Virus record (IMG/VR): IMGVR_UViG_3300012666_001113
Coordinates: 1 to 40,951 of that record
Length of the DNA stretch: 40,951 nucleotides
Reading direction: 5' to 3' (one strand)
From: a virus
The notes beneath the pieces were generated by a model. The model did not search any database. It saw only the letters and a program-made list of their open reading frames with translations, and was not told the DNA's origin. The position numbers were made by a program, and so were the translations under genes. Shown piece after piece: positions 1,236-5,466 of this stretch (the first letter of the stretch is position 1; every line of letters starts with the position of its first letter).

Positions 1236-1262
1236 AGGAGTTCCACAAGAACTCCTTTTTTT
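1236..1262 (+). terminator. Rho-independent terminator of psbA
   Basis: AGGAGTTC (1236-1243) pairs with GAACTCCT (1249-1256) across a CACAA loop, followed by an uninterrupted T run to 1262. It lies 24 bases after the psbA stop codon, on the plus strand. Confidence 0.88.
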
Positions 1263-1328
1263 ATGCTCCTCATCCTCCTCCTCTTCCAGATCTTCGGAGT
1301 GTTCCTCTTTCTAATGTCCCTATTATGA
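1263..1328 (+). CDS. Possible 21-residue membrane peptide
   Basis: This short frame starts with ATG immediately after the terminator T run. It encodes 21 residues that are almost all Leu, Ile, Phe, Met and Val with one Gln and one Gly, enough for a single membrane helix. Its stop overlaps the next start as ATGA (1325-1328), the same coupling used by the neighbouring genes, which favours a real gene. There is no Shine-Dalgarno sequence of its own, unless the terminator arm GGAG serves at a poor distance. It could be a small thylakoid or inner-membrane peptide or a chance frame. I do not recognise it. Confidence 0.35.
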   Translation: MLLILLLFQIFGVFLFLMSLL

Positions 1329-1364
1329 TATCCTCAGACACTCCCTATAAACTCGCAGATATTA
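1325..1364 (+). repeat. 40-bp direct repeat, left copy
   Basis: The 40 bases at 1325-1364 match 1818-1857 at 38 positions; the differences are C/T at base 30 and T/A at base 36. The two copies flank the HNH gene exactly, like a target duplication or a carried-in piece of the resident gene. Confidence 0.95.
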
Positions 1365-1369
1365 TATGA
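1325..1369 (+). pseudogene. Truncated first copy of the 41-residue gene
   Basis: This frame begins with the same residues as the intact gene at 1818 (MISSDTPYKLA) and stops after 14 residues, its TGA overlapping the HNH start as ATGA. It is the 5' stub of a small gene that the HNH cassette appears to have split, while a second copy of the same 5' end downstream rebuilt the full gene. The stub keeps translational coupling into the endonuclease. It probably has no function of its own. Confidence 0.7.
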
Positions 1370-1821
1370 TTTTAAATTTTTGTGCTATATGTGGAACAAG
1401 AGATGATTTGCATCACCACCATTTTGTTGCTAAAAGTCATGGTGGTAGTGACGATGAAACAAATATGCTTACCTTATGTTTTAAGCATCATAATGAGATT
1501 CATAGTAAATCATATAGAAATAATCTTAATCATAGCAAATTAACAAAAGAAGGATTACAAAGAGCAAGAGAACGGGGAGTTGTCCTTGGAAATTCTAAAA
1601 ATCTTGTAGAATATAATAAGATCAAAAAACGTAATGCAAAAAAATATGCTTGGGAATACAAAGACCTTATTTTATCTTTTCAGAACAACGGAATGACATA
1701 TCGGCAAATATGTGCTGAAATGCAAAAGTTGGGTATTAAAACTAGTCATGGTTCTAATATCTGGCACCCTGTTCAAATAGGTAGAATATTGAAAAGAATT
1801 AAAAATGGTACTATTATATGA
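1366..1821 (+). CDS. HNH endonuclease with a serine-recombinase-like C-terminal region
   Basis: Probable free-standing homing endonuclease of 151 residues. The N-terminus is a zinc-bound HNH module: Cys6-x2-Cys9, the HHHH run at 16-19, N33, Cys38 with His41/His42, and His46. From about residue 60 the protein changes character. It carries an RARERGVVLGN segment, then a helix-turn-helix-like stretch with GIKTSHGS, a Trp, and VQIGRILKRI. These resemble the linker and DNA-binding part of large serine recombinases, but the catalytic resolvase domain is absent. The start overlaps the upstream stub stop and the stop overlaps the next start, both as ATGA. The gene is flanked by the 40-bp direct repeats. 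The nuclease call is firm; target and activity are inferred. Confidence 0.85.
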   Translation: MILNFCAICGTRDDLHHHHFVAKSHGGSDDETNMLTLCFKHHNEIHSKSYRNNLNHSKLTKEGLQRARERGVVLGNSKNLVEYNKIKKRNAKKYAWEYKDLILSFQNNGMTYRQICAEMQKLGIKTSHGSNIWHPVQIGRILKRIKNGTII

Positions 1822-1857
1822 TATCCTCAGACACTCCCTATAAACTTGCAGAAATTA
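1818..1857 (+). repeat. 40-bp direct repeat, right copy
   Basis: Right-hand copy of the repeat flanking the HNH gene, 38 of 40 bases identical to 1325-1364. It supplies the start codon and first 13 codons of the intact 41-residue gene. Confidence 0.95.
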
Positions 1858-1943
1858 TCAGAGATACTTGGCCTCAACTTTACAGAAAACCAGAAGCATC
1901 TTACAATAAACAAAAGACTTTGAAAAATGAAAAAATACAATGA
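1818..1943 (+). CDS. Small 41-residue protein rebuilt downstream of the HNH gene
   Basis: This gene starts at the ATG that overlaps the HNH stop and ends at 1943, inside the next gene (start 1927). Its 41 residues are charged and soluble, with a Trp-Pro in the middle (IIRDTWPQLYRKP). I do not recognise a family. The case for a real gene is that its 5' end exists twice, so an insertion preserved its frame, and that it is overlap-coupled on both sides. Its start codon and translation now depend on the endonuclease gene. Confidence 0.6.
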   Translation: MISSDTPYKLAEIIRDTWPQLYRKPEASYNKQKTLKNEKIQ

Positions 1944-2253: not shown

Positions 2254-2490
2254 ATGAAATTTACAGTTTATTCAAAAGATGGTTGTCCATATTGCACAAA
2301 AGTTCAGCAGGTGCTAGAATTGGCAGAACTACAATACGTGGTTTACAAATTGAATGTAGATTTTACTCGTGAAGAGTTCTATGCCGAATTTGGAGAAGGG
2401 TCTACCTTTCCTCAAGTAATTGTTGATGAAAAACATATCGGAGGTTGCTCCGATACAGTTCAATATTTGAAGGAGCAAAATCTAGTTTAA
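2254..2490 (+). CDS. Glutaredoxin
   Basis: A 78-residue dithiol glutaredoxin, the normal length for the family. The active site is C11-P-Y-C14, the cis-proline motif is TFPQV, and the C-terminal GGCSD motif binds glutathione. It would reduce ribonucleotide reductase or other disulfides using glutathione; T4 NrdC and many cyanophage proteins share this role. It ends with TAATG, its last base starting the next gene. No ribonucleotide reductase gene is present in this window. Confidence 0.93.
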   Translation: MKFTVYSKDGCPYCTKVQQVLELAELQYVVYKLNVDFTREEFYAEFGEGSTFPQVIVDEKHIGGCSDTVQYLKEQNLV

Positions 2491-2849
2491 TGAATACTAA
2501 TTTTCACGAAGTTTACAATGATGTTGAAAAGGCAATCGATTATGCCTTTAATGGACAATTTGTTTTGAAGTTTTATGATTATTTGAAAATTCGTGGAACA
2601 AAAAGATACGAAGTTGAAGAGTTTATTGAAAGCGCTACAGCAAATGAAATTAATAATCTTGTAATAGATTTGGATACGTATTTGGAAGGTGGTGCTGATG
2701 ATCTTCATAAACAACTTCGTGAGGCTTATGGACATATTCCAAAACCTCAAGCAAGAAAAATTAGAAACTACATCTATGGCATCTTAGAAGATGCTTGGAA
2801 ATATAGTAATGACAAACGACCAGGAAGACGCAAGAAAAACACTAAATAA
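2490..2849 (+). CDS. Conserved cyanophage-type protein, function unknown
   Basis: 119 residues counted from the ATG at 2490, which overlaps the glutaredoxin stop. A longer in-frame start at 2445 lies inside the glutaredoxin gene and is less likely. The protein is mostly helical and charged, with a basic tail (KRPGRRKKNTK) that could touch nucleic acid. No domain was recognised. The next gene begins inside its last 41 bases. Confidence 0.65.
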   Translation: MNTNFHEVYNDVEKAIDYAFNGQFVLKFYDYLKIRGTKRYEVEEFIESATANEINNLVIDLDTYLEGGADDLHKQLREAYGHIPKPQARKIRNYIYGILEDAWKYSNDKRPGRRKKNTK

Positions 2850-3015
2850 TAATGAACTCCAAATTAATCGGGGTGTTGAACTATTACTACGCAATAGGAG
2901 GAAGGAGAAATCAAAACCAAAAACTTTTCAAGTGAAGTTTGGTAAAATGATTTCTCTCTTCCGTAGAGAGTTTCATTTTTTTATTGAATTTCACTTCGAC
3001 ATTAGGAAAAAATAA
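2809..3015 (+). CDS. Small conserved-looking phage protein
   Basis: 68 residues from the ATG at 2809 (an alternative ATG lies at 2791). The N-terminus is acidic and polar. The C-terminal half is basic and aromatic (VKFGKMISLFRREFHFF, ending FDIRKK), which could form an amphipathic membrane-associated segment. It overlaps the previous gene by 41 bases and ends 19 bases before the next. I recall similar aromatic tails in cyanophage proteins of unknown function but cannot name the family. Confidence 0.55.
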   Translation: MTNDQEDARKTLNNNELQINRGVELLLRNRRKEKSKPKTFQVKFGKMISLFRREFHFFIEFHFDIRKK

Positions 3016-3034: not shown

Positions 3035-3256
3035 ATGTTAGCAGTAACTCTAACTATAGGAACATTAGTTTCAATTATGTTCTTTTTTGTAGGAGGTGTG
3101 GTAGGATGGTTAGCAAAAGAGCATTTCTATCAAACACAACCAATTTTTACACACCCAGAGATGTTTGACTCTAATGGTAATGTAATACCCGACGAAATTT
3201 TAGCTGTGAGATTTGAGAATGATTTTGATTATGATGATGAAGATGAAGATGAATAA
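3035..3256 (+). CDS. Single-pass membrane protein with an acidic tail
   Basis: 73 residues from the ATG at 3035, chosen because GGAGAA sits just upstream at a good distance; a longer frame from 2984 lacks this. One membrane helix covers about residues 3-26, with glycines (FFVGGVVGWLAKE). A polar region follows with GNVIPDEILAVRFE, then a tail made almost only of Asp and Glu. A second, differently coded version of this tail occurs at 3864-3905, beyond the GIY-YIG gene. The role is unknown; orientation and membrane cannot be told from sequence. Confidence 0.75.
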   Translation: MLAVTLTIGTLVSIMFFFVGGVVGWLAKEHFYQTQPIFTHPEMFDSNGNVIPDEILAVRFENDFDYDDEDEDE

Positions 3257-3352: not shown

Positions 3353-3820
3353 ATGTATTACACTTATGCATATTTGCGTGAGGATAGAACACCTTATTAT
3401 ATTGGTAAAGGTGAAGGTAATAGAGCATACAAATCACATAAAAGAAAAAATGGGCAGGAATTAAAACCAAAAAACAAAAATCAAATCATTATTCTTAAAA
3501 AATTTAAAAGTGAAAAAGAAGCATATATTCACGAAGAATATATGATATCAATTTTTAAAAGAAAATGTGATAGAGGCATTCTTGTAAATATATCTTTAGG
3601 TGGAGAACAACCAAATTCAAAATACAAAACTTTGGAAGAAAAGGTAGAAGCAAGAAGAATAAGATCTAGAATAAATGCTAAAAAATACAGGGAAAATGAA
3701 ACGAATGAACAAAAAGAAAAAAGAAATAAAAAAAGAAGAAAAAAATATTCATTGAACAAAGAAATTATAAATCAAAAAAGAAGAGAAATTTACAAACTAA
3801 ATAAACAGATTGACGAATAA
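3353..3820 (+). CDS. GIY-YIG homing endonuclease
   Basis: 155 residues. The N-terminal catalytic module has the family signature: YTYAYLRE at 3-10, TPYYIGKG at 13-20, Arg/Lys residues in NRAYKSHKR, and a conserved Glu at 61/62 in HEEYMISIF. The C-terminal half is extremely Lys/Arg-rich with repeated KKYRENE/KKYSLNKE-type units, as in the DNA-binding part of Seg-like phage enzymes. It has its own perfect late promoter and follows a terminator. It lies between the acidic-tail membrane gene and a leftover copy of that tail, which suggests it entered at their junction. Target site and activity are inferred. Confidence 0.85.
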   Translation: MYYTYAYLREDRTPYYIGKGEGNRAYKSHKRKNGQELKPKNKNQIIILKKFKSEKEAYIHEEYMISIFKRKCDRGILVNISLGGEQPNSKYKTLEEKVEARRIRSRINAKKYRENETNEQKEKRNKKRRKKYSLNKEIINQKRREIYKLNKQIDE

Positions 3821-3861: not shown

Positions 3862-4440
3862 ATGGCGATTATGACTACGACGAAGACGACGAAGACGAAG
3901 ACTGAAACTCCAATTGAGAGTCTTCCATCCAACCCATTTGTATTTGAAGTTTTAGAACTTGTTTCAAAGCAAAGAAGCAATGCAAAAAAAGTTGAAGTTC
4001 TTAAAGCATATGAACACGATTCTTTAAAGACTGTTTTTATTTGGAACTTTGATGATACAGTAATTTCTCTTCTTCCTGACGGTGAAGTTCCGTATGCGAA
4101 TACTGATGAACAATCTGTTTATGCTGGAACTCTGTCTGAAAATCTAGCAAGAGAAGCTGCTGGAGGTGAATCGGCAACAGGTCAAGATCTAGATGGAAGA
4201 GGTCGCACATCTCTCCGCAGAGAATATCAAAACCTTTATCACTATGTAAAAGGTGGTAATGACTCACTTTCTACAATTCGTAGAGAAATGATGTTTATTA
4301 ATCTTCTTCAAGGACTTCATCCAAGAGAAGCAGAAGTATTAATTCTTACAAAAGATAAGAGGTTGACAAATAAATACAAAATAAGTATTGATAATGTGAA
4401 AGAATCCTATCCCGAAATTCAATGGGGTGGACGTTCGTGA
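3862..4440 (+). CDS. DUF6433-type cyanophage protein
   Basis: 192 residues if started at 3862; the ATG at 3871 is equally possible, and neither has a Shine-Dalgarno sequence. The core looks like the conserved cyanomyovirus family DUF6433: FEVLELVSKQRSNAKKVEVL, then FIWNFDDTVISLLPDGEVPY, TSLRREYQNLYHYVKGGNDS and a C-terminal YPEIQWGGRS. Function is unknown. The first dozen residues are an odd Thr/Lys repeat, because the same DNA in another frame encodes the acidic tail remnant (3864-3905). An insertion of about 25 residues (near residues 88-113) sits before TSLRREY. The family assignment is from memory. Confidence 0.7.
   Translation: MAIMTTTKTTKTKTETPIESLPSNPFVFEVLELVSKQRSNAKKVEVLKAYEHDSLKTVFIWNFDDTVISLLPDGEVPYANTDEQSVYAGTLSENLAREAAGGESATGQDLDGRGRTSLRREYQNLYHYVKGGNDSLSTIRREMMFINLLQGLHPREAEVLILTKDKRLTNKYKISIDNVKESYPEIQWGGRS
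3864..3905 (+). pseudogene. Remnant of an acidic gene tail overlapping the DUF6433 start
   Basis: Read in the frame beginning at 3864, this DNA encodes G-D-Y-D-Y-D-E-D-D-E-D-E-D followed by TGA, closely resembling the end of the membrane protein at 3035-3256 (DFDYDDEDEDE and stop). Just upstream, the frame is closed by a TAA at 3855-3857. The codons are mostly GAC, while the intact gene uses GAT and GAA. It looks like the original 3' end of that gene, left behind when the GIY-YIG cassette brought or made a second end. Confidence 0.6.
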
Positions 4441-5331: not shown

Positions 5332-5466
5332 ACCTATACGTTCATTCCCAACGGGAACGGAAGTAAGCCGACTCGGAACGGATCGTTCATTCTCTATTCG
5401 CAAATAGAGAACGCAAAAGCCGACTGAAGGAACGCTCTTTAACTTAAACAACTAAGGAGAACCCTA
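5332..5466 (+). promoter_or_regulatory. Structured 135-base leader of the YRGV-motif gene
   Basis: No gene is visible here. The stretch holds a perfect 9-bp hairpin (TTCTCTATT 5390-5398, CGCA loop, AATAGAGAA 5403-5411). It also holds two copies of AAGCCGACT (5365-5373 and 5417-5425), each followed within ten bases by GGAACG. A strong AAGGAG ribosome site ends it. Its GC content looks higher than that of neighbouring DNA. The length and repeated elements suggest an mRNA leader with a regulatory fold, or a small RNA. I recognise no known riboswitch. Confidence 0.45.

Follow-up and report, generated by a model that had tools for sequence, protein, structure and literature searches.

The locus between psbA and a conserved small gene

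We analyzed a stretch of 40,951 bases from an IMG/VR virus record (the window), which belongs to a freshwater T4-like cyanophage. With the 41-amino-acid (41-aa) gene listed below used as a yardstick, its nearest cultured relatives are Synechococcus phages, e.g., DSL-LC02. The psbA end of the window carries the following features.

3 to 91: PhotoRC-II RNA, ahead of psbA
130 to 1212: psbA
1236 to 1262, plus strand: terminator-like hairpin behind psbA, GGAGTTC-CACAA-GAACTCC and a T run, read directly
1263 to 1328, plus strand: hydrophobic upstream frame of 21 residues, MLLILLLFQIFGVFLFLMSLL and a stop, ending in ATGA
1324 to 1365, plus strand: left copy of a repeat, the 5' stub of the 41-aa gene, 40/42 identical to the right copy
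1325 to 1369, plus strand: stub frame of 14 codons, MISSDTPYKLADII and a stop, encoded by the left copy and read directly
1366 to 1821, plus strand: free-standing HNH endonuclease gene (151 aa), with an HNH domain and a C-terminal recombinase/resolvase-like helical domain
1817 to 1858, plus strand: right copy of the repeat, the start of the intact 41-aa gene, 40/42 identical to the left copy
1818 to 1943, plus strand: conserved cyanophage gene of 41 aa, rebuilt whole (tblastn)

The HNH gene, which is intact and lies downstream of psbA, stands between the two copies of the repeat. The initial annotation had placed a 40-bp repeat, matching at 38 of 40 positions, on either side of this gene; we confirmed it and found that it extends to 42 nucleotides (nt), of which 40 are identical in an ungapped alignment of positions 1324 to 1365 with 1817 to 1858. 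If a 2-nt gap is allowed, the repeat becomes about 5 bases longer leftward (CTATT--ATGA at 1320 to 1328 against CTATTATATGA at 1811 to 1821) and reaches into the 3' end of the 21-residue upstream frame. The CTATTAT ahead of the right copy provides the final codons and the stop of the HNH gene. All three junctions at the locus are ATGA: that between the upstream frame and the stub (1325 to 1328), that between the stub and the HNH gene (1366 to 1369), where the last bases of the stub sit on the HNH start codon, and that between the HNH gene and the intact 41-aa gene (1818 to 1821), where the end of the first sits on the start of the second. Direct reading also bore out the earlier description of the left copy as a 5' stub that runs into the HNH start as ATGA (1325 to 1369), and of the right copy as a segment that begins at the HNH stop as ATGA and continues as the full gene (1818 to 1943), so that a duplicated 5' end rebuilds the small gene. 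From the ATGA overlaps, we infer that translational coupling may work across these junctions.

To place this repeat among others, we refer to an unbiased scan of ORF flanks (1,245 ORFs in all fetched loci, from one strand and with redundant loci), in which the HNH flanks scored 36, near the top (median, 7; 95th percentile, 10); this rules out a chance repeat. Visual inspection showed two top hits of the scan, in L203 and L063, to be a tandem paralogue pair and a repeated leader, and these were not counted. The same structure was found in four other IMG/VR contigs (L001 to L004), one of which (L004) carries another HNH allele that is one codon shorter, and an assembly artifact is thereby ruled out. 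The best copy of the repeat outside these loci matched at 38 of 42 positions, so the left and right copies are only slightly closer to each other.

The HNH protein has both the sequence profile and the beta-beta-alpha metal fold of an HNH endonuclease. It passed the PF01844 cut-off (E value, 9e-6; 26.2 bits versus a cut-off of 21.4), and its C terminus matched the recombinase/resolvase-like family PF07508 below cut-off (E value, 0.002). The AF2 model, of modest confidence (pLDDT, 66), consists of two strands and a helix followed by further helices. A sequence profile gave weak matches to the HNH chains of McrA and IscB, and a Foldseek search with this model likewise gave only weak matches, none at an E value below 0.001. 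Compared with its relative in L005, the gene had a dN/dS of 0.30/1.10, by which it is under purifying selection; together with the conserved HNH residues and the C-terminal helical domain, this makes the protein look able to act. Moreover, the window and L004 are nearly identical, with 17 differences in 3.67 kb, and 16 of these are confined to 122 nt of the HNH gene (1536 to 1657, plus strand), as if this patch had been converted from a diverged copy; the concentration suggests that the gene keeps recombining. No Rfam intron matched the window at the gathering cut-off, which rules out a group I intron, and an intein is ruled out because the stub stops in frame (TGA).

Empty sites and a recombinant island

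Both small genes that flank the HNH gene occur in relatives that lack it. The upstream frame belongs to a family of 21 to 24 aa that is conserved in HNH-free relatives, with the pattern MxxILxxFxLFGxFxFxMSL(TQD)L. Variable columns by codon position numbered 14/7/22 of 24, a third-position bias that suggests that this microprotein frame is translated. The frame starts right in the terminator's T run behind psbA and shares an ATGA with the 41-aa gene; the hairpin and T run are kept directly ahead of the homologous frames in relatives. The 41-aa gene is real and old. A tblastn search found homologues in 305 phage records, where the initial annotation had allowed for there being none; they include syn9 gp217, Syn33_214, and WJZ48294.1 of DSL-LC02. 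Conservation of the first 22 residues extends over hundreds of cyanophages, and the usual place of the gene is near psbA/psbD. In the loci L023 to L102, many different genes precede the 41-aa gene, and its first 22 residues stay conserved. In phage RB11-B (L009, 2601 to 3069), the interval between psbA and the small gene holds a gene with the annotation recombination endonuclease VII, which covers the first 44 nt of the small gene.

For each of the 88 copies of the 41-aa gene in the fetched loci, we scored the first 40 nt and counted repeat copies. The 86 loci without an upstream HNH gene had one copy each, and the two HNH-bearing loci had two. In HNH-free L025, L030, L034, L035, L088, and L090, the upstream frame leads by way of the single copy directly into the 41-aa gene, with ATGA as the junction. 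These counts and junction alignments agree with the prediction of the initial annotation that relatives lacking the HNH gene would join the two small genes through one copy, and with its view that the cassette entered an overlapping gene pair; HNH-free relatives with two copies, which would have spoken against it, were absent among the 86 loci.

Comparison with the HNH-free loci L025 to L027 delimits one further feature.

1269 to 1862, plus strand: donor-like island (putative co-conversion tract) in an L025-like background, from comparison with L025

The window had no mismatches to L025 to L027 at 896 to 1220, and the terminator is common to both. Against L025, about half of the positions were mismatched over 1269 to 1324, and there were 12 mismatches in 1818 to 1862, none over 1863 to 1917, and about 96% identity onward. 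The divergence from these HNH-free loci therefore spans about 55 nt to the left and 45 nt to the right of the cassette, with identical outer sides; given identical flanks outside and divergence inside, the HNH gene and both repeat copies form one foreign island of ∼600 bp. Such an island is the co-conversion footprint expected of homing, and co-converted flanks have been recorded for homing in T4 (PMC2988022). The island may stem from gain in the window or from loss in L025, but HNH-free sites are far commoner than HNH-bearing ones. Since both copies look donor-derived and fall within the one island, the duplication was probably formed elsewhere than in this genome. No HNH-bearing donor with an L088-like background was found. 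An ORF outside any intron or intein, an empty site in relatives, and co-conversion of flanks are among the marks of a free-standing homing endonuclease gene, and the HNH gene has these three; a fourth, predicted mark would be site-specific cleavage of the empty allele that spares its own.

Duplications at the gp44 site and elsewhere

Relatives of the HNH protein (55 to 60% identical) are encoded right after the clamp-loader gene gp44 in L005, L006, and L007; a scan of the genome contigs found no further sites of this HNH family. At gp44, the flanking repeat is the 3' end of gp44 itself (24/24 nt in L006, 16/16 nt in L005, and a remnant in L007). A repeat carried by the cassette is ruled out, since the gp44 relatives have gp44 sequence instead, and these comparisons indicate that the duplication belongs to the site, not to the HNH gene. 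The aligned HNH proteins agree up to ..RxLKxIxNG and then continue with residues from the local target: TII in the window, LVECEFK in L006, LME in L005, and LVSNDYE in L007, each followed by the stop codon. Because the protein tails match the local site, the cassette appears to be an ORF that has a start and lacks its own stop, with the duplicated target giving the end. The local allele is also mirrored in L265, where an unusual gp44 allele (GTGTAAC) has the counterpart GTGTAAA in its copy. In L005, a second, antisense HNH gene (2460 to 3000) lies between the gp44 end and the first HNH gene, with further degenerate copies of the gp44 3' end nearby; these are apparently nested insertions.

Of 121 gp44 3' ends found by pattern, 12 were judged to precede a nuclease-like gene. 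A copy of the gp44 3' end was found with 6 of these 12 next genes versus 1 of the 109 others (Fisher P = 1.6e-6; some of the 12 were classed by eye only, and other reasonable countings give 1e-7 to 6e-6). Pfam supports an HNH domain in L137, L143 (just under the cut-off), L180, L192, L202, and L208. L156 has a sub-threshold PD-(D/E)XK match (PDDEXK_5-like) and L110 only a sub-threshold match of the Eco29kI type; the next genes of L184 and L188 had no Pfam match, and L185 and L195 were classed as nuclease-like by eye. The genes that end in a copy of the gp44 piece, with their borrowed ends before the stop, are as follows.

L137: HNH_3, GGV
L156: PDDEXK_5-like (sub-threshold), DGV
L184: unclassified, VECEFK
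L192: HNH, GGV
L202: HNH_3 (weak copy), VEL
L208: HNH_3, EYEFK

The piece provides a stop in whichever frame it is entered, and GGAG..ATGA is thereby restored before the next gene. The duplications differ in length from site to site (16 to 42 nt), the HNH gene lacks inverted repeats at its borders, and its product is an HNH protein, not a transposase; a transposon with target site duplication is rejected on these grounds.

The window holds a second candidate insertion.

3220 to 3256, plus strand: left copy of a duplicated overlap, the acidic C terminus of the upstream gene, recoded
3353 to 3820, plus strand: second inserted gene, GIY-YIG-like by eye, splitting a gene pair that overlaps in relatives
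3862 to 3905, plus strand: right copy of the duplicated overlap, the N terminus of the downstream gene

The GIY-YIG-like gene had no Pfam match. The gene pair around it overlaps by 35 to 41 nt in L025, L030, and L033, which lack the gene, and L057 has a sibling of the gene at the same site. In L028, the same pair is unoverlapped without a nuclease gene; this case is thus less clean and may have another history.

A proposed route of insertion and its alternatives

Phage genomes are full of gene pairs that overlap and are coupled in translation, and such pairs should exclude insertions. We consider it likely that the HNH gene encodes a free-standing homing endonuclease, that duplication of the target lets its ectopic insertions survive, and that the gene then spreads by homing. 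The gene has the form of a bare ORF cassette, intron-less and intein-less, that starts on the ATGA of any upstream frame and holds no stop codon before the target sequence. The likely first step would be that the HNH nuclease or a different one breaks the DNA at the 5' end of the 41-aa gene or close to it. Sister genomes in the replicating pool may then contribute ends that overlap, between which illegitimate repair joins the cassette. Insertion would thereby duplicate the target, about 42 to 49 bp here and about 16 to 29 bp at the gp44 site, and the right-hand copy always restarts the downstream gene from slightly before its start codon. The upstream gene, the nuclease, and the downstream gene thereby keep complete frames, and the nuclease takes its final codons and its stop from the duplicated piece. 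Survival would be limited to insertions in which both neighbors remain intact. Later spread would be ordinary homing with co-conversion of about 50 to 60 bp per side. Since the right copy keeps an uncut-looking target, self-protection would rest on sequence differences.

An alternative is that ordinary illegitimate recombination or template switching put in a passenger gene with a tandem duplication, the nuclease being passive and selection favoring intact neighbors. We regard this as unlikely, although the process is neither obligatory nor exclusive to nucleases. In L112 (1101 to 1628), a 2OG-Fe(II) oxygenase-like gene has at its borders a 46-nt segment duplicated from the 3' end of the upstream gene and takes its stop codon from this segment; the HNH_3 genes of L143 and L180 at gp44 lack a copy; and the flank scan found no flanking repeat at 20 HNH/GIY-YIG genes elsewhere in related contigs. 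Against a passive nuclease stand the concentration of gp44 copies behind nuclease genes and the short conversion tract that surrounds the window HNH gene, which fits transfer driven by a break. In our view, the process is illegitimate repair under selection for intact neighbors, and nucleases would be overrepresented among the duplications because they create breaks.

Less probable again is that the copies are translation start modules, with a start signal and ATGA, which selection and gene conversion have kept or re-created, and not insertion remnants. The gp44 piece does have GGAG and ATGA, the copies mirror the local allele (as in L265), and in L137 the piece occurs a third time, behind a small frame that does not encode a nuclease. 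The duplication in the window, however, reaches 42 nt deep into the coding sequence downstream, farther than any start signal requires, and its left copy is a stub with no evident use. A partial tandem duplication of the small gene, with the HNH gene arriving later between the copies, would yield the identical order of parts but is very improbable, the duplication being present in 0 of 86 HNH-free loci.

Extending the homing reading to T4-like cyanophages in general, we would only tentatively propose, and with more doubt than confidence, a recurring route to hosting nuclease genes between genes that overlap or are coupled by ATGA, in which stop-less ORF cassettes insert with a duplicated local start or overlap segment from a nuclease-made break (e.g., offset nicks), each insertion repairing its own damage.

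Repair by a duplicated end is known from fungal mitochondrial mobile ORFs, in which the host gene is rebuilt in this way; examples are Allomyces macrogynus atp6, Glomus sp. atp6, atp9, cox2, and nad3, Rhizopus atp9, and Mortierella cox2 (PMC3630166). The initial annotation had set the HNH insertion apart from ordinary homing on this point, which overstated the contrast. As in the fungal cases, the window has an endonuclease ORF and a duplicated host-gene end that restores a complete host frame. The fungal ORFs, however, have a C-terminal piece, often foreign (64 to 81% alike), fused in front (PMC3630166), whereas the piece in the window is a short 5' one of 42 bp (at gp44, a 3' one of 16 to 29 bp), and ATGA overlaps are kept among three phage genes.

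Among phage systems, the free-standing endonucleases seg and mob of T4, of which mobE has a UAAUGA overlap with nrdA (PMC2988022), share with the window a promoter-less nuclease gene, a start coupled to the upstream stop, and co-conversion tracts. Work on T4 supports both microhomology-mediated repair as a route to ectopic sites and coupling of the ATGA type for free-standing nucleases (PMC2988022). In that 2010 review, however, seg and mob are described as intergenic insertions or as splitting genes, and a term for duplication at the insertion point is absent (PMC2988022). F-CphI of cyanophage S-PM2, which cuts psbA (PMC6083498), is likewise a free-standing cyanomyovirus endonuclease with a psbA link, but it has an Endo VII catalytic motif and belongs to another protein family than the window HNH protein with its recombinase-like C terminus. 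Term searches of the T4 review (PMC2988022) and of a phage nuclease survey (PMC10448857) found no description of insertion-site duplication in phages, and full-text searches of non-subscription papers found no report of a self-repairing phage nuclease insertion. On our reading, the window has a free-standing phage homing gene whose insertion into coupled gene pairs is self-repairing.

The locus shows how selfish nuclease genes may enter coupled phage genes with neither intron nor intein. Recent insertions can be searched for by a signature, a short repeat from which the neighbor's frame restarts. The ectopic first step of homing-gene invasion is usually invisible; at the gp44 junction, where several unrelated nuclease types share one borrowed piece, it becomes testable. 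Elsewhere in the window, a candidate glutamine riboswitch aptamer (Rfam RF01739) lies at 5382 to 5438, with a score just above the gathering threshold.
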